This document shows positions 7,015 to 20,482 of a stretch of DNA of 64,000 nucleotides, in pieces. The first letter of the stretch is position 1; every line of letters starts with the position of its first letter. A program made the position numbers and the translations under genes. The notes under the pieces were generated by a model. The model saw nothing but the letters and a program-made list of their open reading frames with translations, searched no databases and had not been told where the DNA came from. Source of the DNA: an uncultured Flavobacteriaceae bacterium (GTDB lineage Bacteria; Bacteroidota; Bacteroidia; Flavobacteriales; Flavobacteriaceae); NCBI GenBank assembly GCA_937929935.1, contig CALFUL010000013.1, forward strand, positions 1 to 64,000. Direction: 5' to 3'.

Positions 7015-7419
7015 CTATTCCCAAAACACATCTGTTTCGTTTTCGATGAATTTGTATCCAAGATAATCAGCAGCTATCGATTCAAGTTGTTCTGAAGTTG
7101 CGATTCTTTGTAGTTCATTTAGAAGTTCTAGTTCCTCATATTTAATATGATACTCCAACTCCTTTTCAATTAGATACAACTTTTTAACCAAATCATCGGA
7201 ATTACAGAAAAGATCATGTAGCATTTTATGTGCTATAATAGCTTTTTCTACAAGTCTATGATGTCTACCCCTTATAGGCAATACCTCTTTTTCTACGTTC
7301 TCAAAATATGGAATAAGATGGTTTTTAAAATACCAATTCACATACTTCTCGATGCGTTTTAGGTCTACTCTTTTTGATAGTCCTGTTCTAATTTTCCAAC
7401 ACAGCAACAGCGCGTGATA
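7015..7419 (-). pseudogene. 5'-truncated hemerythrin-like gene, paralog of 8165-8650
   Basis: From residue CWKIRTG onward the product aligns with the intact hemerythrin at 8165-8650 (CWKIRTGLSKRVDLKRIEKY against CWKIRTGISKNVPLERIKRY), and both end in the same way (FIENETDVFWE against FIENQTDMFWK). Upstream, the frame keeps only YHALLL before an in-frame TAG, where the intact copy has about 28 more residues, including the first iron-ligand histidines (REHHHG). The break lies beside the hairpin repeat at 7425-7443. The first available ATG gives 130 residues (7407). A short product could be made but would lack ligands, so I read it as a broken tandem duplicate. Confidence 0.7.
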
Positions 7420-7424
7420 CTACA

Positions 7425-7459
7425 CCCGAGGCAGCCCCTCGGGGAATTCTATTGATTAA
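7425..7459. repeat. REP-like hairpin at the breakpoint of the truncated hemerythrin
   Basis: The stem CCCGAGG (7425-7431) pairs with CCTCGGG (7437-7443) over the loop CAGCC. It is followed by the tail GGAATTCTATTGATTAA shared with 2493-2510. It sits exactly between the lost 5' part of the hemerythrin copy and the ferredoxin gene. Confidence 0.6.
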
Positions 7460-7494
7460 ATGTATAATAATGCTACATACACAATCGAAATTCC

Positions 7495-7800
7495 TCAGAC
7501 TATTTTAAAAACTAGCTTATCCAACGCTGCCGTAAGAGGAATTTGGCAGGCAAGCCTTACATCTTTACCCGCCTCATTCATTTTTGACAGCGTCTCGATT
7601 TCATCCACGCCCATTACTTCGGTAATGGTACCTTCTAAAATTTGTACGCGACAGGTACCGCACCAAGCTCTTCCCTTACATTCTCCCCAGTCTTCTAAAT
7701 ATTTATCAAAGAGAAGTTCCATCAGACTATAATACTCATTAGGTTTAAAAGTAGCTTGTCGCTCTTCGTCAAATTCATCAAAATATGTTAGGCTATACAT
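7495..7800 (-). CDS. 2Fe-2S ferredoxin (adrenodoxin-type spacing)
   Basis: This 101-residue soluble protein has the four cluster cysteines C41-x5-C47-x2-C50 and C85 in a ferredoxin fold (GECKGRAWCGTCRV ... RLACQIPL). The C-x5-C-x2-C spacing is that of vertebrate or adrenodoxin-type [2Fe-2S] ferredoxins. It is the last intact gene of the minus-strand nitrosative-stress cluster, so an electron-carrier role for a di-iron or heme protein there is a reasonable inference. The partner is unknown. Confidence 0.85.
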   Translation of the reverse strand: MYSLTYFDEFDEERQATFKPNEYYSLMELLFDKYLEDWGECKGRAWCGTCRVQILEGTITEVMGVDEIETLSKMNEAGKDVRLACQIPLTAALDKLVFKIV

Positions 7801-7832
7801 CTGATAATAGTATCAATTTTAAGCTCAGGTTT

Positions 7833-8117
7833 CTAAAACAGGTGCACGATAATTATCGTGGCACTCAGTAGTACACTTACCAATAAGGTATTAAAAGCGA
7901 ATTTGTTAGTTTGTTGTGAAAGCACGGCTCCATTAAAAAACATACAGGCTATAGTCACAAAAAAAAGTTGAGTTAATAGTATTACTTTAGGTGGATCGCT
8001 CATAAGAATTACCAAAACGGCTACCGAACCTAGGCAGCTTTGACCAATAATGGCGAACGATGCATACATCATTTGTTGTTTTCCGTATTCTTTCAATAAA
8101 TTGTTGTAAAGTGTCAT
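7833..8117 (-). CDS. Small three-helix membrane protein, unknown function
   Basis: The product has 94 residues with about three hydrophobic segments (approximately 17-38, 44-63 and 72-93) and little soluble sequence. I do not recognise the family. It lies between the ferredoxin and the hemerythrin on the same strand with gaps of 32 and 47 bases, which suggests co-transcription with the cluster. Confidence 0.7.
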   Translation of the reverse strand: MTLYNNLLKEYGKQQMMYASFAIIGQSCLGSVAVLVILMSDPPKVILLTQLFFVTIACMFFNGAVLSQQTNKFAFNTLLVSVLLSATIIIVHLF

Positions 8118-8164
8118 AATTATTTTTTTTAGTTTTTATTATTATTCAATTCGTTTAACTGAAT

Positions 8165-8650
8165 TTATTTCCAAAACATGTCTGTTTGGTTTTCTATAAA
8201 TTTTTCTTCGGAATGGCATTCCGATATTAACTTTAGCTGGCCTGGGGTTGCAATTTTCTGTATTTCAGTAAAAAGAATACGCTCTTCAAACCTGATATGA
8301 CCTGCTAATTCTTCTTCAATTTGATTTAATTTTTTATGCAATTCTTCTGCACTTTTAAAAAGACGAAATAATCGTCTGTGCTCTGTCATAGCTCTTTTTA
8401 TAAGCTTATTGTCTTTTCCTAGAATAGGAAATATCAATTTTTCCTCTAACTCAAAATGAGGAATCAGATGGTTTTTAAAAAACCAATCTGTATACCGCTT
8501 TATTCGCTCTAAGGGAACGTTTTTAGAGATACCCGTTCTAATTTTCCAACATAACAGTAACCCGTGATGGTGTTCACGACTAACCTGCTGCAATGCTTTA
8601 TCACGCTTTATGGGAGCAGGATTAGAAACTGAAGCCCTCTTACTTGACAT
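8165..8650 (-). CDS. Hemerythrin-like domain protein
   Basis: This 161-residue protein has a hemerythrin HHE pattern: H27-H28-H29, H61 and H65 (KNHLIPHFELEE), H91 (TEHRR), H118 and E122/E123 (GHIRFEE). Such domains bind a non-heme di-iron site that can bind O2 or NO. Its start codon region overlaps the 3' end of the ScdA/RIC gene by 11 bases, a sign of translational coupling. A truncated second copy lies at 7015-7419. A role in NO or iron handling is inferred from the family and the neighbours. Confidence 0.85.
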   Translation of the reverse strand: MSSKRASVSNPAPIKRDKALQQVSREHHHGLLLCWKIRTGISKNVPLERIKRYTDWFFKNHLIPHFELEEKLIFPILGKDNKLIKRAMTEHRRLFRLFKSAEELHKKLNQIEEELAGHIRFEERILFTEIQKIATPGQLKLISECHSEEKFIENQTDMFWK

Positions 8651-9371
8651 CGGTCAGTTCTTTTTCTAATTGCTCAGATTTTGGAAAGAGCATATTATTC
8701 TCCAAATGAATATGCTCATGTAGGTCAGCCTCAAACTCCTTTAGTAAAGAAAATGCAACATGAAAAGTATCGCAAGCATTCACTGGAGGGGTATAGTCAT
8801 TACTCAATGTACGTATTTTTTGAAATCGCTCTCCTTCGTCAATATGATCTTCCATCATTACTTGAATGGGACTTTGAATGGTATCGAACTTAAATTTCAT
8901 TAATGGGCTAGCATCCTTTTTTGCCCTTACCATTTTTCGAATTGCAGGAAAAACCATCAACTCTTCTTTCTTCATATGCATCGCTAATTCGGCTCCTGCA
9001 AGCTTAAATTCTTCTTTTATTTCGAACAATTCAGGATGAGCTACTCCATGCCGAATGCAAAGTTTTTCTAAATATTCATTTAGTACGGGAATGGTCTTCT
9101 CGACGTACCTGTGATGCTTTTTTTCTATATAGTCTGTAAGTAAGTCTAAGGGCCAAGATTTAAAATCGGTACTATCAATTTTTTTAGAATTCTGTACCTC
9201 TTCTACCTTTTGTAAAAGAATACTAGCACTAAGATTATTTTCCTTAGCTACTTCTACAATATTTCGGTTTCCTTTACAACAGAAATCGATGTTATGGTTT
9301 TTAAAAATTTGCGCTGTTCTGTAATCATCTACAACTATTTCTCCGATATTCTTTTTTAAAAGATTATCCAT
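8640..9371 (-). CDS. scdA: Iron-sulfur cluster repair di-iron protein (RIC/ScdA/YtfE family)
   Basis: The 243 residues match the two-part ScdA layout. An N-terminal ScdA_N/DUF542 domain carries the adjacent cysteines C31-C32 (IDFCCKGN). A C-terminal hemerythrin-like domain has the expected histidine and glutamate clusters (KKHHRYVEKT, HMKKEELMVFP, MMEDHIDEGE, LHEHIHLENNMLFP). The family restores Fe-S clusters damaged by nitric oxide or oxidants, in the cytoplasm. It lies 7 bases downstream of a cupin gene and shares its likely promoter, which carries the repeated 23-base motif at 9729-9751. Confidence 0.92.
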   Translation of the reverse strand: MDNLLKKNIGEIVVDDYRTAQIFKNHNIDFCCKGNRNIVEVAKENNLSASILLQKVEEVQNSKKIDSTDFKSWPLDLLTDYIEKKHHRYVEKTIPVLNEYLEKLCIRHGVAHPELFEIKEEFKLAGAELAMHMKKEELMVFPAIRKMVRAKKDASPLMKFKFDTIQSPIQVMMEDHIDEGERFQKIRTLSNDYTPPVNACDTFHVAFSLLKEFEADLHEHIHLENNMLFPKSEQLEKELTDVK

Positions 9372-9378
9372 ACTACAA

Positions 9379-9678
9379 TCAGTTTTTAAAATTTATGGTT
9401 CCGTTTGAGGCCATGACTGCAATAGCTTTAAAATTTAGCTGTACCGATAGGCTATGTTCTGCATTAGCGGGAATAATAAATACTGTGCCAATCGCCAACA
9501 CATGCTCCGCATCAGGCATTTTTAATATTGCTTTACCTTCTTGAACAATAATCGTTGTTTCTACCGTACTATGATGTAGAGGAATCTCCATACCAGCCAA
9601 TGCATTCACCTGTAAAACTTTAGTGTGTTCACCTACTACTAAAGGTGACATTTCGGGTTTTTGAATTTCTTTTATCAT
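9379..9678 (-). CDS. Cupin-domain protein
   Basis: This 99-residue single-domain beta-barrel protein has the cupin pattern: motif 1 around GMEIPLHHSTVETTIIVQEG and motif 2 around GTVFIIPANAEHSL, with metal-type histidines. The ligand is unknown. It is the first gene after the internal promoter region 9679-9758 and precedes scdA by 7 bases. A second, different cupin lies at 10108-10455 in the same cluster. Confidence 0.8.
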   Translation of the reverse strand: MIKEIQKPEMSPLVVGEHTKVLQVNALAGMEIPLHHSTVETTIIVQEGKAILKMPDAEHVLAIGTVFIIPANAEHSLSVQLNFKAIAVMASNGTINFKN

Positions 9679-9728
9679 TTTTATTTTTTTATGTATTATC
9701 TAAGTGTTTGCGACAAAATAGTATTAAC

Positions 9729-9751
9729 GATATTATTACCTTTTTATCTTT
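9729..9751 (-). promoter_or_regulatory. Candidate NsrR/Rrf2 operator, copy 2
   Basis: These 23 bases are identical to 15062-15084, upstream of the cbb3-like gene. The site lies in the short gap between the DUF59 gene and the cupin-scdA pair, 51 bases before the cupin start, where a second promoter would sit. The outer part (GATA...TATC) is an imperfect inverted repeat. Confidence 0.55.
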
Positions 9752-9758
9752 ATATGAG

Positions 9759-10067
9759 TTATAAGAAACCAAGTTCGAACAAAGCTTCTTCGCTCATAAG
9801 TATTTTATCCCAAGGTGGATCCCAAGTTAAATCAACTTCGGCCTCTGTTATAAATTCGAGTTCTAAGATTCGGTCACGAACCGAATCAACTATGTAACCC
9901 GCCATAGAACAAGAAGGGGATGTGAGTGTCATTAAAATATCTACCTTGTTTTCTGTTGGCATTTTTAAATCATAGATAAGACCTAAATCGTAAACGTTGA
10001 CCGGAATTTCTGGATCAAAGACCATTTTAATCTTATCAATTATCGCCGTTTCATTTTCTTCTACCAT
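9759..10067 (-). CDS. DUF59/MIP18-type Fe-S cluster assembly factor
   Basis: This 102-residue protein has the DUF59 signature: DPEIPVNVYDLGLIYD at the N-terminus, a single conserved Cys in TLTSPSCSMAG, and the DPPWD segment near the C-terminus. The family (SufT, PaaD and MIP18 types) helps maturation of cytoplasmic Fe-S proteins. Its place beside scdA suggests rebuilding of clusters after nitrosative damage. This looks like a cluster-specific copy; no suf genes are in the window. Confidence 0.87.
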   Translation of the reverse strand: MVEENETAIIDKIKMVFDPEIPVNVYDLGLIYDLKMPTENKVDILMTLTSPSCSMAGYIVDSVRDRILELEFITEAEVDLTWDPPWDKILMSEEALFELGFL

Positions 10068-10107
10068 ACTACTCCGTTTTTTATTCTGAAATATCTAGGA
10101 TTGTAAT

Positions 10108-10455
10108 TTATTCGGTTCCCGTTTCGATCTCTTGCACTCTTTCAATCTTATCTTTTAAGGATAAAGAAAGTCGCACGATGCTATCTTCTAAAGCTCTTAA
10201 ATCGTGCAGCACGTTTCCTTCTAGTGTAATTAAATCTCCATGAACTAAGTGTTTCAACTCGCCATGCACTCCAAAATCTATTTTTCCTTGAAATATTTCT
10301 ACCACGATAGGAAATGGTGTTTTATGAGATTTCATGATTTGACCTTTTTTAAACACGATACGTATTTCTTTGGTAGCTGCTGATTCAAAAAGTACCGATA
10401 TCGCCGGCTTATCGGCGTTGTAAACTAAGTCTTCTACTATTGATGCTATTTTCAT
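10108..10455 (-). CDS. Cupin-like protein
   Basis: This 115-residue soluble protein has a cupin-like strand pattern (VFKKGQIMKSHKTPFPIVVEIFQG and LVHGDLITLEGNVLHDLRAL). Single histidines stand at the usual metal positions, and the fold call is better than any functional call. It is separated from the 4-TM protein by 12 bases and from the DUF59 gene by 40, consistent with one transcript. Confidence 0.7.
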   Translation of the reverse strand: MKIASIVEDLVYNADKPAISVLFESAATKEIRIVFKKGQIMKSHKTPFPIVVEIFQGKIDFGVHGELKHLVHGDLITLEGNVLHDLRALEDSIVRLSLSLKDKIERVQEIETGTE

Positions 10456-10467
10456 TTGTATTATTTT

Positions 10468-10908
10468 TTATGATTCAAATTTTTCAAAAGCCTTGACCGA
10501 GTATATAATCAGGGCTGTAATTTTTACTACTTCTAAGACCACATAATAGAGATGCATATACGATTGCTCCACTACCCCACCTGAAATTACGGTATCCGCA
10601 CGATGGTCAAGTTGCGGAAGAAAATAGAACGTTTGTACTATCAAAATCACTATCGGAATTTTAAGCCAAAGACTACGTGCAACAGTTTCTTTTCTATGGA
10701 GTGCAAGTTGTACTATGATGAGTAGCGCAAGTACCCATTCTACCTTGTTCAACGCGAAGAAAACCAACTTTCCGATACTCAACCCAATCGGTAAACTAAC
10801 TCCTTCAGCTTGAAATTTTAACCAAGCCTCCATAAAACTAATCGCCCCTATAAAGCCAATCCATAGCAACGTAGAGACAATTAAAACAGGATGTTTGACA
10901 ACACGCAT
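10468..10908 (-). CDS. Four-helix membrane protein, unknown function
   Basis: The product has 146 residues and about four transmembrane segments (approximately 8-27, 42-66, 80-97 and 118-138). Polar features between helices include E27 in MEAWLKFQ and the segment LPQLDHRAD. I do not recognise a specific family. Its start overlaps the stop of the truncated hemoglobin gene (TAATG), so it is translationally coupled to it. It may serve the respiratory or heme part of the cluster. Confidence 0.75.
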   Translation of the reverse strand: MRVVKHPVLIVSTLLWIGFIGAISFMEAWLKFQAEGVSLPIGLSIGKLVFFALNKVEWVLALLIIVQLALHRKETVARSLWLKIPIVILIVQTFYFLPQLDHRADTVISGGVVEQSYMHLYYVVLEVVKITALIIYSVKAFEKFES

Positions 10909-11300
10909 TAGATTAACGGTTTTGAATTGTTCTGACGATAGTGGGCAATCTTATATTGAAACATTTCTGCCATTTTCCCCGCGCGCCATTTTGCTTCTTC
11001 GGCTTTTTCTCCCGTGAAATTTTCATCTAAAGTCTCAAAAAACAAAGCGAGCCATTGCTCAAAATGTGCTTTCTCAACAGGTAACTCTGCATGCGGCATA
11101 AAAGGATTACCATAATAACTGCGGTCTCCTAAAAGTATGGTTTGCCAAAAGGTGTACATTCTCGCCATATGCTTTGGCCATTGGTCTTGTATTACAGCAT
11201 TAAAAACATCTTTTAATACGGCATCTTCTTGTACTTTGCCGTAAAATGTATCGACTAATACCTTTATATCTTCTTTGGTGTTAATTGTTTTTTTCATCAT
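10908..11300 (-). CDS. Group III truncated hemoglobin
   Basis: The 130 residues have the truncated-globin pattern of group III: WPKHMARMYTFWQTILLGDRSYYGNPFMPH, then HFEQWLALFFETL. The histidine of that last segment is the probable proximal heme ligand, and an aromatic-rich distal pocket precedes it. Related proteins bind O2 and NO and are tied to nitrosative stress in some bacteria. The gene overlaps its upstream neighbour by 4 bases (ATGA) and its downstream neighbour by one, so it sits inside one operon. Confidence 0.88.
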   Translation of the reverse strand: MMKKTINTKEDIKVLVDTFYGKVQEDAVLKDVFNAVIQDQWPKHMARMYTFWQTILLGDRSYYGNPFMPHAELPVEKAHFEQWLALFFETLDENFTGEKAEEAKWRAGKMAEMFQYKIAHYRQNNSKPLI

Positions 11301-11722
11301 ACAAATGAGGTATAAAATTCAGGACTCCAAAAGAAAATCAGATAGAAAAGTGCAAAGGCAACAAAAGATAGTATTAATGCCCAAACCCAAGCCGGAATGG
11401 CTTTTGGGGTTTCTGACCCACGAATTACGAATTCGTCATTGGTTTCGCTTCCGTATGCATTTATAGTAATGGGTATCTGTGTATCTACCACTTCATTTTG
11501 ACCCAGCCCGACAACGGAAATCATAGGGCCATTTCTAACCTCAAAATCGACCTCTTTTAAGCCTTCTACCCCTTGTGATGACTTCGCTACGATTTTAAGC
11601 TTGTGCTTGCCATCTGTAATTTTCGTGGTATCTAAAACAAATTTTACCGGTGGGGAAAATTCAGCGAAAGGCTGCTCCTCCTCATCTAAAAATACCTTTA
11701 TGATTCTATTATCTTCCATCAT
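11297..11722 (-). CDS. Unknown protein: Ig-like domain with C-terminal membrane anchor
   Basis: The 141 residues form a beta-rich domain (about 5-90) followed by one transmembrane helix (approximately 112-134, WVWALILSFVAFALFYLIFFW) and a very short tail. There is no signal peptide. The topology is therefore uncertain: a tail anchor would place the Ig-like part in the cytoplasm. I do not recognise the family. Tight spacing to both neighbours suggests an accessory role for the oxidase encoded upstream, comparable in position to small Cco assembly subunits. Confidence 0.7.
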   Translation of the reverse strand: MMEDNRIIKVFLDEEEQPFAEFSPPVKFVLDTTKITDGKHKLKIVAKSSQGVEGLKEVDFEVRNGPMISVVGLGQNEVVDTQIPITINAYGSETNDEFVIRGSETPKAIPAWVWALILSFVAFALFYLIFFWSPEFYTSFV

Positions 11723-11724
11723 CT

Positions 11725-12003
11725 TTAAAAGTCTTTTTTCAGCACAATGTTTTTAACATGCTCAGGGTTTGTTTCTTTTGGCTTTATCAAATATTTAACG
11801 CTGTAAAAAAGCGTAAAGCTTACAATAGCAACTGCCGACCATGTGATGATATAATCTATGGTTCCTGTCGGACCAGTACCGTGGGTGATGTTTTCTAACA
11901 TCTTGGGTTGGTTCTTTTTACAAAGATCACACGCATAACTACCGTACTGAAAACCTATAATTAATAGGATGGCAAATAGATTTTTTCTTTTCATTTTTTC
12001 CAA
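11725..12003 (-). CDS. Small membrane protein with an exported CxxC motif
   Basis: This 92-residue protein has an N-terminal signal-like helix (LFAILLIIGFQYGSYA) followed at once by CDLCKKNQP, then a second transmembrane helix (about 50-70) and a charged cytoplasmic tail. The CxxC would face the periplasm and could bind copper or heme or act as a thiol pair. That is inference; I do not recognise the family. It overlaps the preceding small gene by 13 bases and so belongs to the oxidase operon. Confidence 0.7.
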   Translation of the reverse strand: MEKMKRKNLFAILLIIGFQYGSYACDLCKKNQPKMLENITHGTGPTGTIDYIITWSAVAIVSFTLFYSVKYLIKPKETNPEHVKNIVLKKDF

Positions 12004-12227
12004 TAATTGTTCGCAGCTGCGATGGTTTGAAATTCAGTAGCAATGACGTTCGCCGAGGCAATTAGCATTGCTGGGTCTTCGGCATAAATAGGGCGCAATC
12101 TCTTCTTGACTTCCGGATCAGATTGTATTGCTCCTACAGATTTTCGAGCCAATGTAATCGCCAAGGCTCTACCTTCCATTGGTGTTTCTGTCAGCAAACT
12201 GGGCAAATAATTCTCTTTTTCACGCAT
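11991..12227 (-). CDS. Small soluble protein of unknown function in the oxidase operon
   Basis: The product has 78 residues and is predicted helical, with no membrane segment, no signal peptide and no cysteine. A central segment reads LARKSVGAIQSDPEVKKRLRPIY. It starts 4 bases after the CcoO-cytochrome fusion gene and overlaps the next gene. The tight packing supports a real gene. I do not recognise it. Confidence 0.65.
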   Translation of the reverse strand: MREKENYLPSLLTETPMEGRALAITLARKSVGAIQSDPEVKKRLRPIYAEDPAMLIASANVIATEFQTIAAANNYWKK

Positions 12228-12231
12228 CCCT

Positions 12232-13239
12232 TTATTGGTTTAACTGCATTACAAAATCCCGTACGCGCTTGATGTCACTTTCCGTCGTCGGAGCAGCATT
12301 GTTACCCCAACTACTACGTTCGTGGTTTACAATAGCAGAAATTTCGGCATCACTCAACTGTTCCGCAAAACCAGGCATTTGGCCATATTCACTGCGGGCG
12401 TCATAGCCTTGTAATATGATTTTTACCATAAAATCGTAATCTGTATCCATTACAACGCTACTACCTGCCAAAGGCGGAAAAGCACCTTTTAAACCCTGCC
12501 CGTTTTGTTGGTGACAAGCAGCACAGGTTTGCATGTAAAGGCTTTCGCCATCCAATTCTGCTGATGATGCACCTCCGCCATCTGATTGTTCTTCTTTTTT
12601 CAATGCTGGAATAAAGCCTATCGATGAAGCATCTGGCATCGGAGTCTGTTTTAAAGATTGCAAGTACGCCACCAATTGCAGCGCTTCTGTTGTGGCAATA
12701 ACCTTATTGCTCTTCTTATCTAAATAACTATCTGGCACGGGTACGATAACATCATTGTCTTTTACCAGAACAGAATCCACTTCCTCAAACATCCAAGGGT
12801 ATGAGGGCATAATCGATGCTTTTACTACGGTTCTTGGATTGTATAAATGCAATAAATGCCATTCTTTACCTGGTTGTCGTTTTCCTATGTTAGTCAAATC
12901 TGGACCTGTTCTTTCGCTTCCTAGTAGTGAGGGCGACTGCCGCCAAACATCCATCCGTTTTTTGCTGTAATAATAATCGGATGGTAAAGAAGGGCGGTCT
13001 CCCCAAACCTCATCCATGGCAATATTGCGCACTTGCTGCGTATGGCAGGCCATGCAATTTTCAGCTACGTAAACACGCAAGCCTTCTGCTTCGTTTGCAG
13101 TAAATCCTACCTGGTCAGGCAAGGGCTCGTAATCTTGCATCTGAAATGCAGGTAAAACTGCGATTCCTAGACTCAAAGTGGTAAATACCACTAAGGCCGT
13201 AACTACTAAATTTCTATGGTTCTTATGAAAATCAAACAT
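12232..13239 (-). CDS. Diheme cytochrome c: CcoO-like domain fused to a class I cytochrome c domain
   Basis: This 335-residue protein is anchored by an N-terminal helix (residues 9-30). The first heme site is C62-M-A-C65-H66 in the context CMACHTQQVR, the signature of CcoO (cbb3 subunit II); M144 in IMPSYPWM is a likely axial ligand. After a flexible linker (about 212-228), the second site is C239-A-A-C242-H243 (CAACHQQNG), with M288 in YGQMPGF as probable ligand, resembling a CcoP cytochrome domain. In standard cbb3 operons CcoO and CcoP are separate. The protein should sit in the periplasm and pass electrons to the subunit I encoded 13 bases upstream. Confidence 0.87.
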   Translation of the reverse strand: MFDFHKNHRNLVVTALVVFTTLSLGIAVLPAFQMQDYEPLPDQVGFTANEAEGLRVYVAENCMACHTQQVRNIAMDEVWGDRPSLPSDYYYSKKRMDVWRQSPSLLGSERTGPDLTNIGKRQPGKEWHLLHLYNPRTVVKASIMPSYPWMFEEVDSVLVKDNDVIVPVPDSYLDKKSNKVIATTEALQLVAYLQSLKQTPMPDASSIGFIPALKKEEQSDGGGASSAELDGESLYMQTCAACHQQNGQGLKGAFPPLAGSSVVMDTDYDFMVKIILQGYDARSEYGQMPGFAEQLSDAEISAIVNHERSSWGNNAAPTTESDIKRVRDFVMQLNQ

Positions 13240-13252
13240 GTGTTTCGCTACT

Positions 13253-15043
13253 TTAAATTTTTATAGGTTCTGTTGCTAGTTCTTTGGATGGAATGACTTC
13301 TTTTCTACGCTTTACCATGTAGTAAAAGTTATACGCGAATATTAAATGTGAAAGAAACATCAACGAACCACCTACGGCACGCCACACCCAAAAGGGCTTC
13401 ATTAATATTACAGATTCTATAAACGCATTGCCATCGACCCAACTCAAACCTTTTAAAGTACCACCTGCCATCATTGACATCATGTAGGCGAACAATCCTA
13501 CAAAAGCCATCCAAAAGTGGGCGCCTACAAATGCTTGCGGTGGCTCTTTTCCTGTTAGTTTTGGCAGAAGGGAATAGATACAGGCCCATAGTAAAAACGT
13601 AATGATACCATACATGGTGATATGAGAATGGGCTACGTTAAAATCAGTGAAATGCCAAACATAATTCGTGAATCTAAAAGCTTGTAGACTACCTTGAGTA
13701 GAGCCGACAAAGTAAAAAACGACTCCGACTAAAAAGAACGGCAAAACATAACTTTTAGAGATGTTGCTCCACGTACCTTTCATGGTCATAAAGAAATTGG
13801 TGGTGCCAGCAACTACGGGAATAAACATACCTGCACTAAAGACAATAGCCACTGTTTGTAGCCACCATGGCAGCGGACTAAATACGAAATGGTGCGTTCC
13901 GATAAGGGTATAGAATAACATTTGCGTCCAAAAAGCCAGTACTCCCAAGGAATACGAATAAATAGGCTTATTTAGTGAGGATGGTAAAAAGTAGTACACT
14001 AATCCCAATGTAAAGGTCATAAACCACATCCCCACTCCTTGGTGCATATAATACCCTTGTATTATGGTTTCTCCCAAACCATCTTGGTAAAAAGGCAGAT
14101 ACGCGATAATCGTTAGAATAATCGTCCATCCCAAGGCAGCCAATAAAAACCAATTGGAAATATAAATTTCTGAGATCTTTCGTTGCGCTACAGTTTTATA
14201 AAAATTATGAAATGTAATGATAAGGCCAATAGCGAATATGGCCATAACGGGCCAGATAAACTCACGATACTCCCCTCCTCCATTATTGAGACCGCTCATC
14301 AAGCAAAGATTCCCGATAGCGACAGAGGCATTAAATAATACTAACGCGCGTTTCGCATTTTTATAACTGTAGATGACAGTATTTGATGTTCTAGCCACCA
14401 CAAAATAGCCCAAGCCTATCATGGCCATTGATACCCAGCCCCAAAATACGGTATTGGTATGTACGGGACGTAATCTACCAAAAGAAAGCCATGATTGACT
14501 ATCCATTTCTGGCCATACGAATTTCATACCTAAATATTGACCTACTAGTGCGCCAAAAACAAGCCAAAAAACCGATGATCCTAAATAGGATATAATTATT
14601 TTTTTTAACGGCTCGGGAGTCTCTACGTTGAGTGGTGTTTTTTGTTTCTCATCAAAAAGAGGGTTGTCTGGGTCATTGGTCACTTTTTGAATCAAACCCT
14701 TTCTATCAAGTACAGCCTGCTCTTTTCCTAATTCCGTGCCAGACAATTTATATTTTAATGACTTTTTTCGATTTTCAAGAATCTCATCTATTCCTTCCTC
14801 ATCTAAGTCCAAAAGCTCGTCCGAAAAAGCAATATCTTTTTTTTCTATTTGAAACTGTTTGTAGCGGTCGATATACCCATTAAATCTAATAAGTAATATA
14901 ATTGATGCCACAGCAAAAACGATGAAGATCAAAATAAACGTACCGATAATACCTGGATTTTGAATCCAATTTTCTGTAGTTACTACTTCCGTTTGAATTA
15001 GCGTGGGTAGATTTAAAAGCGACGCTAGGGGTTGATGATTCAT
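13253..15043 (-). CDS. cbb3-like heme-copper oxidase subunit I (CcoN-like), possible NO or O2 reductase
   Basis: The 596 residues comprise an extra N-terminal helix (31-53), a cytoplasmic acidic linker (about 55-145), then a 12-helix heme-copper core. Visible ligands are H195 (low-spin heme, GRLRPVHTNT), H334 (CuB, YYMHQGVG), H384-H385 (CuB, IGTHHFVF), and H472 and H474 (hemes, VAHSHITMYG). Y378 lies six residues before H384, where cbb3 oxidases have their cross-linked tyrosine. The NorB glutamate position (H+4) is Gly338, so classical cNOR or qNOR is not supported. The setting (Rrf2, RIC, truncated globin, hemerythrin) points to NO. Chemistry is open: a specialised high-affinity oxidase or an NO reductase from the cbb3 side of the superfamily. 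Confidence 0.85.
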   Translation of the reverse strand: MNHQPLASLLNLPTLIQTEVVTTENWIQNPGIIGTFILIFIVFAVASIILLIRFNGYIDRYKQFQIEKKDIAFSDELLDLDEEGIDEILENRKKSLKYKLSGTELGKEQAVLDRKGLIQKVTNDPDNPLFDEKQKTPLNVETPEPLKKIIISYLGSSVFWLVFGALVGQYLGMKFVWPEMDSQSWLSFGRLRPVHTNTVFWGWVSMAMIGLGYFVVARTSNTVIYSYKNAKRALVLFNASVAIGNLCLMSGLNNGGGEYREFIWPVMAIFAIGLIITFHNFYKTVAQRKISEIYISNWFLLAALGWTIILTIIAYLPFYQDGLGETIIQGYYMHQGVGMWFMTFTLGLVYYFLPSSLNKPIYSYSLGVLAFWTQMLFYTLIGTHHFVFSPLPWWLQTVAIVFSAGMFIPVVAGTTNFFMTMKGTWSNISKSYVLPFFLVGVVFYFVGSTQGSLQAFRFTNYVWHFTDFNVAHSHITMYGIITFLLWACIYSLLPKLTGKEPPQAFVGAHFWMAFVGLFAYMMSMMAGGTLKGLSWVDGNAFIESVILMKPFWVWRAVGGSLMFLSHLIFAYNFYYMVKRRKEVIPSKELATEPIKI

Positions 15044-15059
15044 TTATATAATTTTAAAT

Positions 15060-15084
15060 AAGATATTATTACCTTTTTATCTTT
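15060..15084 (-). promoter_or_regulatory. Candidate NsrR/Rrf2 operator, copy 1
   Basis: The imperfect palindrome runs from AAGATA (15060-15065) to TATCTT (15078-15083), 17 bases upstream of the cbb3-like start. Bases 15062-15084 recur exactly at 9729-9751. The AAGAT/ATCTT ends resemble the half-site ends of the known E. coli NsrR consensus, and an Rrf2 gene lies directly upstream. Binding is inferred. Confidence 0.6.
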
Positions 15085-15100
15085 TATTGTTGTAATTTTT

Positions 15101-15535
15101 TTAGCGTTTTAAAAAGGTCAACCCGACTTCTAGTCCCGTTGCCAATTCAAACAGACTTGTATGCTGTAACATTTGTGCTAACTCATTGCGAACAACTGCG
15201 AACTTCTCGTGAAGCGGACAAGGTCTTTGAGCATTGCACTTCTTGAGACCCAAGCCACAGCCTTCATAAATAGAACTGCCATCGATGGCAGAAACAATAT
15301 CACTTAGTTTTATTTCGTCAATTCTGTTCTTCTCTATTTGAAACCCTCCTGTGGGGCCTTTTACAGAATCGAGCAAACCGGCTTTTGCCAATTGATGTAA
15401 TGTTTTAGCTGTAAAAGCAACTGGCGACTCTATTTCTTGTGCTATGTCTTTTAAACTTACTCGCCTACCCTGCAATGATTGTAGCGCAATGTACGAGGAT
15501 GCTTTTATGCCATATTCACAAGCTTTTGAAAACAT
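15101..15535 (-). CDS. Rrf2-family transcriptional regulator, NsrR-like
   Basis: The 144 residues show the Rrf2 winged-helix domain (residues 1-75, VSLKDIAQEIESPVAFTAKTLHQLAKAGLLDSVKGPTGGF) followed by three cysteines C93-x6-C100-x5-C106 in GCGLGLKKCNAQRPCPLHE. That spacing suits a [2Fe-2S] or [4Fe-4S] cluster as in NsrR and IscR. With scdA, a truncated globin and hemerythrin downstream, NO sensing is the best inference. It lies upstream of, and on the same strand as, the cbb3-like gene. A perfect 15-base palindrome overlaps its own promoter region. Confidence 0.9.
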   Translation of the reverse strand: MFSKACEYGIKASSYIALQSLQGRRVSLKDIAQEIESPVAFTAKTLHQLAKAGLLDSVKGPTGGFQIEKNRIDEIKLSDIVSAIDGSSIYEGCGLGLKKCNAQRPCPLHEKFAVVRNELAQMLQHTSLFELATGLEVGLTFLKR

Positions 15536-15541
15536 ATACTA

Positions 15542-15556
15542 GTATTAATTTAATAC
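15542..15556. promoter_or_regulatory. Perfect palindrome upstream of the Rrf2 gene
   Basis: GTATTAA-T-TTAATAC is a perfect 15-base palindrome 6 bases upstream of the Rrf2 start codon. It could be an autoregulatory operator. AT-rich composition makes chance occurrence possible, and it does not match the 23-base motif. Confidence 0.35.
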
Positions 15557-15671
15557 AAATGTAGTTTTATTTTTTAATTATGACAAATTTGTCAGAATTA
15601 AAAACCATTTTGGAATCATGTGTAAAAAGCTGGTCTTCATAAAAATAAGCTTTCCCCTTACCTTTTAATAA

Positions 15672-18019: not shown

Positions 18020-18813
18020 ACAATCTATTTTTATTTTAATATAACTTGCTCGCAATCATTGTGATACACATTCTTACCTTGATGTTTTCGATAGTAAGCC
18101 TGCATTACTGGGTCGGCTCGTATTGCTTGCCACGATACTTCTACAAAATAACTTCGAAGTAAACGATTAGCTCTTGATCTACAAATCGAAAGAAACGCAT
18201 GCGACTATCAAGAGTCGCTTTTGCTGTTGGGTGTTCAAAAATCATTGCATCTAACCAATTTCTATATTTATGACTCCAATGATCATTATCAAACTCCTCA
18301 GGCTCTTTAATACCGTAATACAGCAATTGCATTTTTATGTAACTCTTAACCCTCCTAAAATCTTTCACCAAATCATTTCTACGTCTGAATAGACTGCGAA
18401 GTTCCTCGCGCTTTCTATCTGGAACTACTATACTCTCTAAACGACCATCTTTAAGTTCTCTAGCAATCAACTGAGCATCTATTTTATCGGTCTTAGTATG
18501 CTTCTCTTTACCCTTTCGATGAATATCTGCTGGGTTCACAACTAAACTTCGCCAACCATAACCTTCAAAACAGCGATGCGCGTAATAACCACAACAACCA
18601 GCTTCATAGGCCGTGGTAACTTCATATTCCTGAAAATGTTTGGAAACATAAGCTTGTAATTGATTTGGGTCGGGCGACATACTAAAAGACTTACCTGAAA
18701 ATAAATCTGTTGCACAATGTACTTTCCAACTTCGTTTGTGAATATCGATACCAATGTATAACTTCGGGTAAGCAGTTTGTTGAGTGTTCATATCTTAATT
18801 GTTTTAGAGAACT
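17980..18813 (-). mobile_element. IS110-family insertion sequence remnant
   Basis: The element holds the 5' part and a piece of the 3' part of one IS110-type transposase on the minus strand. It is bounded by AGTTCTCTAAA (17980-17990) and its exact inverse TTTAGAGAACT (18803-18813). The span is about 830 bases against roughly 1.2-1.5 kb for intact members. Its ends are tentative, since IS110 elements often lack strong terminal repeats. Confidence 0.6.
18020..18791 (-). pseudogene. IS110-family transposase, internally deleted
   Basis: From the ATG at 18791, 216 codons encode the DEDD RuvC-like N-terminal domain (YIGIDIHKRSWKVHC, VTTAYEAGCCGYYAHR, KTDKIDAQLIARELKDG), followed by the helical linker to RFVDQEL. 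The frame then shifts and stops at 18141. In another frame, 18055-18165 encodes part of the C-terminal transposase_20 domain (RSYFVEVSWQAIRADPVM, then YYRKHQGKNV). The middle of the protein is missing, and the last segment ends early (YHNDCEQVILK, stop). The enzyme cannot be functional; the C-terminal catalytic serine region is absent or disrupted. Confidence 0.8.
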
Positions 18814-19610: not shown

Positions 19611-20209
19611 ATTTTCAATTGAGATACCTTTCCGCACATAGAACTTCTCCTCATACCGTCGGCTTTCGCCAGAGGGGAGACAAGAGCATAATAAGTGTTC
19701 CATTACTTTTTCAGAGAGAGTTTTTGGAAGAAAAATTAAAAGAAAGTGTATTGCCAAAAACGTCAGCCCTCCAATCCGCTCAAAAATATAAAAATTCTCA
19801 ATCTTTATATTTTGTGACGTTTACCAAAGCAAAGCGTCATAATGCAAGACATTATAGTACAACCTAAGAAACTTCTTGAGTTCTTTTTCCATCAACGGTA
19901 ATCCTCGCATAGAACCTGATGTTTACCGCTTCCAAATTAAGTTTTGGAGTGACGAATACAATTGATAGTCTACTATTTTACAACACTTTACATAGATTTA
20001 AATAAATAAAATGGCAAAAAACACAAGGTCAAAATACCTACTAAAGCTACTTCAATGTACAAAAAACACTGTGATTATCAATTCCCGATTTGTACACCGG
20101 AGCGTTGTTTTTATATGGCTTCATGAGGTTTCATTTGACACCCCTAAAACATAAAACGTTGCAAATCAGTAGATTTGCAACGTTATGCAACCAGATGAAA
20201 CTAGTTAAG
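19611..20209. other. Gene-free region between decayed genes and tRNA-Pro
   Basis: No supported gene. An imperfect hairpin (CTTCTCCTC at about 19644-19652 with GAGGGGAGA at 19672-19680) looks like another dispersed repeat. A 48-codon plus-strand frame at 20010 has no recognisable content. The perfect hairpin at 20155-20184 is annotated separately. Confidence 0.5.
20155..20184 (-). terminator. Hairpin downstream of the tRNA-Ser/tRNA-Pro pair
   Basis: A 13-bp perfect stem AACGTTGCAAATC (20155-20167) pairs with GATTTGCAACGTT (20172-20184) over the loop AGTA. Read on the minus strand it follows tRNA-Pro by 25 bases and is trailed by a T-rich run (TTTTATGTTTT), as for a factor-independent terminator. 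Confidence 0.65.
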
Positions 20210-20284
20210 TCGGGGTGGCAGGATTCGAACCTGCGACCTCCTCGTCCCAAACGAGGCGCGATAACCGGGCTACGCTACACCCCG
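20210..20284 (-). tRNA. tRNA-Pro (anticodon TGG)
   Basis: The minus strand folds as a tRNA: acceptor CGGGGTG/CACCCCG, anticodon stem CCTCG/CGAGG around loop TTTGGGA, and T arm GCAGGTTCGAATCCTGC. The anticodon TGG reads proline codons. No CCA is encoded (the next bases are CTT). Confidence 0.95.
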
Positions 20285-20393
20285 AAAATGAGTGTAAAAT
20301 GTCTAGTAAATATTTAATAAGAAAATCAAACCGGTGTCGCGACTTTCTATCTACTAGATTTATTATTATTTCTGTCTCACGCAGAAATTCTTG

Positions 20394-20482
20394 CGGAGAG
20401 ACAGGGATTCGAACCCTGGGTACCCTTGTTAGGGTACGACGATTTAGCAAACCGTTCCTTTCGGCCACTCAGGCACCTCTCC
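20394..20482 (-). tRNA. tRNA-Ser (anticodon GCT)
   Basis: The minus strand shows acceptor GGAGAGG with TCTCTCC, a long variable arm (GTACCC TAACAA GGGTAC) typical of serine tRNAs, and T arm CAGGGTTCGAATCCCTG. The anticodon loop TTTGCTAAA carries GCT, reading AGC and AGT. It is 109 bases upstream of tRNA-Pro and likely co-transcribed with it. Confidence 0.95.

Follow-up and report, generated by a model that had tools for sequence, protein, structure and literature searches.

A cbb3-side heme-copper clade and its probable nitric oxide regulon in Bacteroidota

Introduction

Nitric oxide (NO) reductases (NORs) of the heme-copper superfamily are currently divided between the C side, with cNOR and qNOR, and the B side, with bNOR and eNOR and the proposed classes sNOR, gNOR and nNOR (PMC11388526), a NOR reference set being also provided in PMC12569097. 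The cbb3 oxidase of P. stutzeri is reported to reduce NO to N2O (PMC8780969). Vibrio fischeri has an NsrR-controlled, NO-resistant alternative oxidase (PMC5156696), and E. coli YtfE, a RIC protein, reportedly reduces nitrite with release of NO and was proposed to act as a partner of NO-consuming enzymes (PMC9052748). Here, we analyze a gene cluster located in the first 64,000 nucleotides (below, the window) of contig CALFUL010000013.1 from an uncultured Flavobacteriaceae bacterium (GCA_937929935.1), in which a cbb3-like subunit I is packed together with genes for an Rrf2-family regulator, a truncated haemoglobin and a RIC protein. As judged from sequence, this subunit I almost certainly represents a clade of its own, designated F, which lies on the cbb3 side and is distinct both from canonical CcoN and from cNOR/qNOR.

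With canonical cbb3 oxidases (CcoNOQP) the F proteins share the fold, 25–27% identity by structure alignment, six His ligands, the Tyr of helix VII and a CcoO/FixO partner, but they differ by Gln450, Gly and Ala in the K-channel, Gln374 and His566, by fusion of CcoO to one cytochrome c, by other small partners, by probable inclusion into an NO regulon and by separate clustering in the tree. The resemblance to cNOR and qNOR consists in the C-side branch, the fold and, in some genomes, the same regulated neighbourhood, whereas Gly in place of the NorB Glu, the presence of Tyr and FixO where those enzymes have NorC or a fused quinol domain set F apart. Similarly, the regulator has the Rrf2 fold and three conserved Cys of NsrR, with an operator preceding RIC and globin genes, but in the window these Cys are spaced as C-x6-C-x5-C and the score remains far below that of the NsrR equivalog; the operator itself is unlike NsrR boxes. 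The newest NOR classes are reportedly defined in a PNAS paper of 2024, which lay outside our literature search; this search, performed by titles and the beginnings of abstracts, found no paper describing the cluster, so that novelty is not claimed.

Position of subunit I in the heme-copper tree

The catalytic subunit was described in the first-pass annotation of the window as cbb3-like rather than as a classical NO reductase, and this assignment holds. Sequence and profile searches both indicated CcoN subunits of the C family as its nearest solved relatives, Pfam assigned it to COX1 with 266 bits, and the TIGR00780 ccoN model, which is matched by all 33 members of the alignment designated A4, gave 250.2 bits, far below its cut-off of 583.15. 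The structural model of subunit I (mean predicted local distance difference test score, pLDDT, of 69) yielded Z of 37.6–39.0 against CcoN and of 37.6 and 35.8 against two cNORs, a near tie in which the model confirms the fold only and does not place Gln374, Gln450 and Gln454 relative to the heme.

In the main tree of 67 rows, F, canonical CcoN and cNOR together with qNOR formed three separate clades, each supported at 100/100, and F was joined at 99/97 by 10 of the 15 rows designated C2—a label covering proteins that score between F and CcoN and do not make up one clade—the other five C2 rows being located elsewhere. F and CcoN remained separate and reciprocally monophyletic when long rows (L039, L044, L167, L183, L191, and L192) were omitted, as they were from the trees used for the approximately unbiased (AU) tests. 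Merging of F and CcoN into one clade gave p-AU of 0.33, merging of F with NOR gave 0.66 and 0.67 at slightly higher likelihood (the trees with 0.33 and 0.66 were also built without A-family rows), and placing canonical CcoN outside NOR, F and C2 gave 0.74, again with slightly higher likelihood. None of these arrangements was rejected, so that the sister placement of C2 and F is not firm and more than one deep order of branches agrees with the tests. In the free trees F lay outside the cNOR/qNOR clade, and subunit I did not fall inside ordinary respiratory cbb3 oxidases, the placement that the first-pass annotation had set against its own proposal. F appears not to fit the cNOR and qNOR definitions that were applied, and its best solved relatives belong to the C family.

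Kinship to cNOR by sequence, for which the 25–63 bits of F against one cNOR could have spoken, was dropped: with six cNOR queries, the medians of F and CcoN were level for three and higher in F for three. Apart from F, a C2 subgroup (L053 and L055; loci L219 and L220) has Rrf2-like neighbours and reaches 67–69 bits against one cNOR, above any F row, and may constitute another regulated branch nearer to the NORs.

Residues of the active site and proton path

The residues were compared in aligned rows comprising 23 F, 13 CcoN, 13 cNOR/qNOR and 15 C2 sequences. A complete set of metal ligands, Tyr378 and Gly at the position of the NorB Glu had been read from the window sequence, and all of them were confirmed by alignment: six His ligands and Tyr378 are present in 23/23 F rows, as is Gly338, located four residues after the first metal His, where all 13 NOR rows have Glu. 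What distinguishes F from CcoN is a fixed or almost fixed set of substitutions. Gln450 occupies in every F row the position of a Glu found in 13/13 CcoN, which we take to be E323 of P. stutzeri; Gly367 and Ala370, both invariant in F, replace Ser (13/13 CcoN) and His (12/13), presumably residues of the K-channel; Gln374, near Tyr378, is present in 22 of the 23 F rows as against Leu or Ile in all CcoN rows. His566 is common to the whole F set, and residue 454, one turn past Gln450, is represented by Gln in 14 rows and by Glu in 9. The C2 proteins are like F in having Gln instead of the CcoN Glu (15/15) but unlike it in keeping the K-channel Ser (14/15). Judging from the alignment, the changed Glu and K-channel residues would speak against ordinary cbb3 function.

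Conserved partners of subunit I

In the window, the cluster comprises 16 open reading frames (ORFs) of the minus strand, extending from 15535 to 7015; neighbouring ORFs are −13 to +87 bp apart, four pairs of them overlapping, in agreement with the dense one-strand packing described initially. Its conservation was estimated by scanning contigs of the best 80 of 440 relatives, all from Bacteroidota and taken from named records, which are the source of all counts out of 80 given below; neighbours were counted within at most 10 kb per side, and some loci end earlier (3.3 kb for L123), so that the counts are lower bounds. The FixO-cytochrome c fusion and the two small membrane proteins p92 and p141 were each found in 79/80 loci, thus forming the conserved core. 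They are followed by Rrf2 (61, in 57 cases directly upstream of subunit I), globin (55), RIC (42), hemerythrin (35), hexameric tyrosine-coordinated heme protein (HTHP) and p146 (32 each), cupin A (22), ferredoxin (15), cupin B (13), p94 (7) and DUF59 (3). Synteny with RIC, Rrf2 and globin, which the first-pass annotation had proposed to look for in relatives, is therefore a property of many of these loci. The genes listed there were identified properly, but HTHP and four small proteins without Pfam match were overlooked, including p92 and p141, which belong to the most constant partners. Since cupins, ferredoxin, p94 and DUF59 are peripheral, the idea of a cluster “built around” the oxidase fits only subunit I, the FixO-cytochrome c fusion, p92 and p141.

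Among 11 more distant F loci, p92 was detected in all and p141 in 10, while 8 of these loci had one or more of the genes for RIC, globin, Rrf2 and DUF59. For C2, nine of the 12 loci found were examined: p92, p141, RIC and globin were all missing (0/9) and Rrf2-like genes occurred in 2/9. An Azoarcus example of C2 is located with an SCO gene. The RIC-globin context thus belongs with F and not with C2. Genes of N-oxide metabolism also appear within 10 kb of F: nosZ in 5/80 loci (three of them from Algoriphagus) and qNOR in 5/80, one locus having both, which makes 9/80 with either. In Gramella sp. AN32 (L063), the run RIC-qNOR-p407 directly precedes the Rrf2-F unit, and two Algoriphagus loci (L112 and L117) have Rrf2-RIC-p407-NosZ in divergent orientation to the F operon.

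The p407 product itself (L064:18946–20169 and 11 other loci) is a membrane protein without Pfam match, which contains the motif HTHSHIALLGW and is encoded beside F, RIC, qNOR or NosZ in 12/80 loci; weak COX1 fragments noticed in other carriers may belong to this family. Relatives of tryptophan 2,3-dioxygenase (PF03301) with a length of about 300 aa, presumably heme proteins, are encoded near F in 13/80 loci (e.g., L121:7706–8617), and in 6/80 (L106:18283–20403, L103, L109, L112, L116, and L118) the 10 kb around F include genes for the anaerobic ribonucleotide reductase, NrdD and NrdG.

Regulator and shared operator

All 57 Rrf2 proteins encoded directly upstream of subunit I contain C-x6-C-x5-C, and the one from the window scored 29.8 bits against the NsrR equivalog, below the cut-off of 182. 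Upstream of the Rrf2 gene, a 22-bp palindrome, typically TTTCGGATAAATTTGTCCGAAA, exceeded 8 bits in 46 of the 58 Rrf2-subunit I promoters, and twenty rounds of letter shuffling gave 0–3 of 58. The training set of the matrix consisted of these same 58 promoters and included none of the sites that precede RIC, cupin, globin and RIC-qNOR genes. The copy in the window (15577–15598) stands just before the element TAnnTTTG, which we take to be the −7 type of Bacteroidota and which was found in 47/58 upstream stretches as compared with about 6 in shuffles. Scanning of 1.59 Mb revealed 132 sites above 13 bits versus 1–9 for ten column-shuffled palindromic matrices. Untrained sites precede RIC genes in L063, L103, L117, L131 and L133, cupin genes, globins (L084 and, marginally with 13.4 bits, L121) and, in Gramella sp. 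AN32 (L063), the whole RIC-qNOR-p407 run.

The suggestion that the neighbours point to NO is thus strengthened both by conserved synteny and by the operator shared with RIC, cupin and globin genes and with the RIC-qNOR unit. We infer, with strong support, that the Rrf2 protein acts at the palindrome as a repressor of the NsrR kind and that NO induces the cluster, NO being considered as the signal because RIC, globin and qNOR genes share the operator or the neighbourhood. The cluster thereby very probably belongs to an NO regulon. Another palindrome, GTATTAAATTAATAC, noticed in the window was dropped, since it was found in 1/58 promoters. The search for operators in the window’s own genome returned the window site, a site in contig 29 with one mismatch and a site in contig 21 with three mismatches, the reversed control giving more (6 + 6 vs. 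3 + 3); the site in contig 29 is flanked by an ORF that presumably encodes a translesion-polymerase-like protein and by another ORF, of which nothing was made.

Distribution of clade F

Within the family, F was found in 10/199 genomes including the window’s own, the other nine proteins being 64–76% identical to it, and among the matches listed for these 199 genomes canonical CcoNO proteins came next at 29–33% with nothing between. A sample of the phylum (395 genomes) contained 13 genomes with F (at least 50% identity, own included) and 12 with C2 (33–37%). In the window’s genus only its own genome out of 14 carries F, and among the best 80 of 440 relatives the closest named ones are Croceitalea (88%, with the same core region) and Roseivirga, a member of another family (83%). 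This patchiness makes gene transfer or repeated loss of F likely.

In the phylum sample, NosZ accompanies F in 10 of the 13 carriers as compared with 118 of the 382 other genomes (p = 0.0011), and qNOR was found in 3/13 versus 34/382 (p = 0.11). Among the named carriers, which may share species with the phylum sample and of which 31 of 32 were searched (L112 was left out), NosZ is encoded in 23 and cNOR or qNOR in 12, 15 of those 23 being without c/qNOR; NORs were assigned by score and length, and the assignment was checked by sequence in 12/12 genomes. In the window’s own genome, which is 85% complete, no NirK, NosZ or qNOR was found, and an aa3-type COX1 is the only one beside F. The F carrier G462 encodes two extra, unclassified COX1-like proteins (open frames of 580 and 508 aa) in contig 4 at 72878–76340, and nirK and nosZ are also located on this contig.

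CcoS, the assembly protein of canonical cbb3, was detected in 22 of the 33 genomes searched. It was not found in the F genomes without canonical CcoN (G000, which is the window’s own, G051, G138, G438, G482, G073, and G609, the last two appearing to be one species) and is likewise absent from four genomes without F and without CcoN, being present in F carriers that have canonical CcoN. Thus, F seems to be independent of CcoS, which is compatible with a different metal route but does not demonstrate that the B site contains iron.

Proposed reduction of nitric oxide and alternative roles

The first-pass annotation had left the choice between a special oxidase used under NO stress and an NO-reducing branch of the cbb3 side, and we lean to the latter, although for the statement that reduction of NO to N2O is the main cellular role of F we see the chances as evenly balanced. 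Of the readings considered it agrees best with the facts, being supported by the separate clade with its residue signature, the synteny, the operator, NosZ in the carriers, nosZ or qNOR near some F loci, the lack of CcoS in F genomes without canonical CcoN and the NO reduction reported for the P. stutzeri enzyme. NO would induce the cluster by relieving the Rrf2 repressor at the palindrome; the FixO fusion would take up electrons through its two cytochromes c and deliver them via the low-spin heme b to the heme b3-CuB site of subunit I, where NO would be reduced to N2O. NO would thus be removed at the membrane by F, with cytoplasmic NO and O2 being handled by truncated haemoglobin and hemerythrin, and RIC would take care of iron-sulfur and nitrite/NO chemistry. 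The resulting N2O could be respired where the genome encodes NosZ, and in the window’s own genome the system would serve for pure detoxification. The NO reduction reported for cbb3 implies that this chemistry needs no NorB Glu.

A number of observations weigh against such a role. Tyr378, invariant in F, is absent from all 13 cNOR/qNOR rows, and in combination with Gly at the NorB Glu position it makes the site look built for O2. Tyr350, Asn416, Thr420 and Tyr444, which by P. stutzeri and V. cholerae numbering make up the remaining K-channel, are invariant in the 33-row A4 alignment, so that the channel may have undergone rewiring and not loss. Mean identity to cNOR is 18.7% for F and 18.5% for canonical CcoN, and globin and hemerythrin fit an O2 setting as well. 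The association with NosZ becomes weaker if counted by genus (9/11 vs. 79/160, p = 0.058), and no enrichment of NirK was found in the F carriers of the phylum sample (3/13 over the cut-off vs. 60/382, p = 0.44). The presence of c/qNOR in 12/31 named carriers means that F does not simply replace one, and in F-minus genomes with NosZ qNOR occurs in only 9/118, being lacking in 109 (cNOR not counted). Since these genomes are mostly without qNOR too, the argument that F is the only NOR of NosZ genomes was rejected as a proof.

The chief rival explanation, possible though doubtful in our estimation, assumes that F reduces O2 and that NO induces it in order to keep electrons flowing when aa3 and cbb3 oxidases are poisoned. 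Its strongest point is the invariant Tyr378, retained with all His ligands in 23/23 F rows; besides, F occurs without canonical CcoN, the aa3-type enzyme is its only COX1 companion in the window’s 85% complete genome, and the alternative oxidase of Vibrio fischeri may be taken as a precedent by analogy. Such an oxidase, however, would have to work with replacements of the Glu and two K-channel residues that are fixed or nearly fixed in CcoN, CcoS is missing where CcoN is missing, and the enrichment of NosZ along with qNOR or nosZ within 10 kb in 9/80 loci creates an N-oxide setting. The same Tyr, taken together with globin in 55/80 and hemerythrin in 35/80 loci and the lack of a link to NirK, would agree with joint O2/NO chemistry, i.e., a microaerobic NO scavenger that oxidizes NO with O2 or supplies the globin/hemerythrin system; we regard this as improbable, the enrichment of NosZ suggesting N2O rather than nitrate as the product. 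To our knowledge, no precedent exists in the superfamily, which we also count against this possibility. Least probable is an ordinary cbb3 oxidase that has drifted in sequence and adjoins NO genes by chance or due to a general stress grouping: the matches to NCBIfam ccoN and Pfam COX1 and the p-AU of 0.33 for F with CcoN are in its favour, and yet F and CcoN are reciprocally monophyletic, the residue signature is fixed, the core is kept in 79/80 loci and one operator is common to the cluster and to genes for RIC, globin and qNOR.

If reduction of NO is indeed performed by F, the clade could tentatively be viewed as a further class of NO reductases on the cbb3 side, namely a Tyr-retaining, probably CuB-containing enzyme that receives electrons from cytochrome c and has its proton path rewired, maybe sister to or transitional between cbb3 oxygen reductases and cNOR/qNOR, which is widespread in Bacteroidota and is named cbb3 oxidase by family models; we hold this broader proposal to be less probable than not. 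If F reduces NO, Bacteroidota scored as lacking NO reductase would be converters of NO to N2O, many of which also possess an N2O reductase, and predictions of N2O sources and sinks from genomes would change. It would also provide a natural oxidase-type site, with Tyr and without the NorB Glu, selected for NO, making the question of O2 versus NO testable by residue swaps. Should F be the NO-tolerant oxidase instead, it would show how a cbb3-like site escapes inhibition by NO. Under either reading, an NO regulon of these bacteria can be predicted from the operator.

Gene content of the cluster in the window

Window proteins were annotated with Pfam and NCBIfam profiles (Table 1, where genes are listed in the order of the cluster).

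Table 1. Control elements and genes of the F cluster in the window
Feature	Position	Strand	Basis or remark
Palindromic operator ATTCTGACAAATTTGTCATAAT	15577..15598	.	22.8 bits against family matrix; family sites resemble TTTCGGATAAATTTGTCCGAAA
TAnnTTTG promoter element TACATTTG	15556..15563	-	read from sequence
Rrf2-family regulator, C-x6-C-x5-C	15101..15535	-	PF02082, E 5.6e-24
Heme-copper subunit I, clade F; N-terminal transmembrane (TM) extension 1-145 and COX1 domain 148-560	13253..15043	-	PF00115, residues, tree, fold
FixO/CcoO fused to second cytochrome c domain, two CxxCH	12232..13239	-	PF02433, PF00034
HTHP	11991..12227	-	PF11534, E 1e-32
p92: signal peptide and one TM segment (read from sequence), conserved CxxC	11725..12003	-	core partner, no Pfam match
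p141: beta-rich domain and C-terminal TM segment	11297..11722	-	core partner, no Pfam match; low-confidence model
Truncated haemoglobin (Bac_globin)	10908..11300	-	PF01152
p146: multi-TM protein	10468..10908	-	no Pfam match
Cupin-like protein A	10108..10455	-	PF07883 below cut-off
DUF59/SUF-associated protein (FeS_assembly_P)	9759..10067	-	PF01883
Cupin-like protein B	9379..9678	-	PF07883 just below cut-off
RIC/ScdA/YtfE di-iron protein	8640..9371	-	TIGR03652, 218 bits, above cut-off of 204.7
Hemerythrin-domain protein	8165..8650	-	PF01814
p94: small hydrophobic protein	7833..8117	-	no Pfam match
2Fe-2S ferredoxin (Fer2)	7495..7800	-	PF00111
Truncated paralogue of hemerythrin-domain protein	7015..7407	-	51.5% identity over 130 aa to 8165-8650

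No separate CcoP or CcoQ was matched among the window genes in Pfam. The model of p141 (mean pLDDT of 68) had no Foldseek match under E 0.001, and its CopC-like and Ig-like matches were too weak to be used. The last ORF of the cluster, called “hemerythrin” at first, gave no match in Pfam; an in-frame stop is located just upstream of it and the His-rich N-terminal start is missing, so that the tandem hemerythrin paralogue (7015–7500) may be decaying. Upstream of the cluster, near the genes for tRNA-Pro and tRNA-Ser at 20209–20482, lies an ORF (18141–18791) that presumably resembles an IS110-type transposase, which fits the patchy distribution of F.

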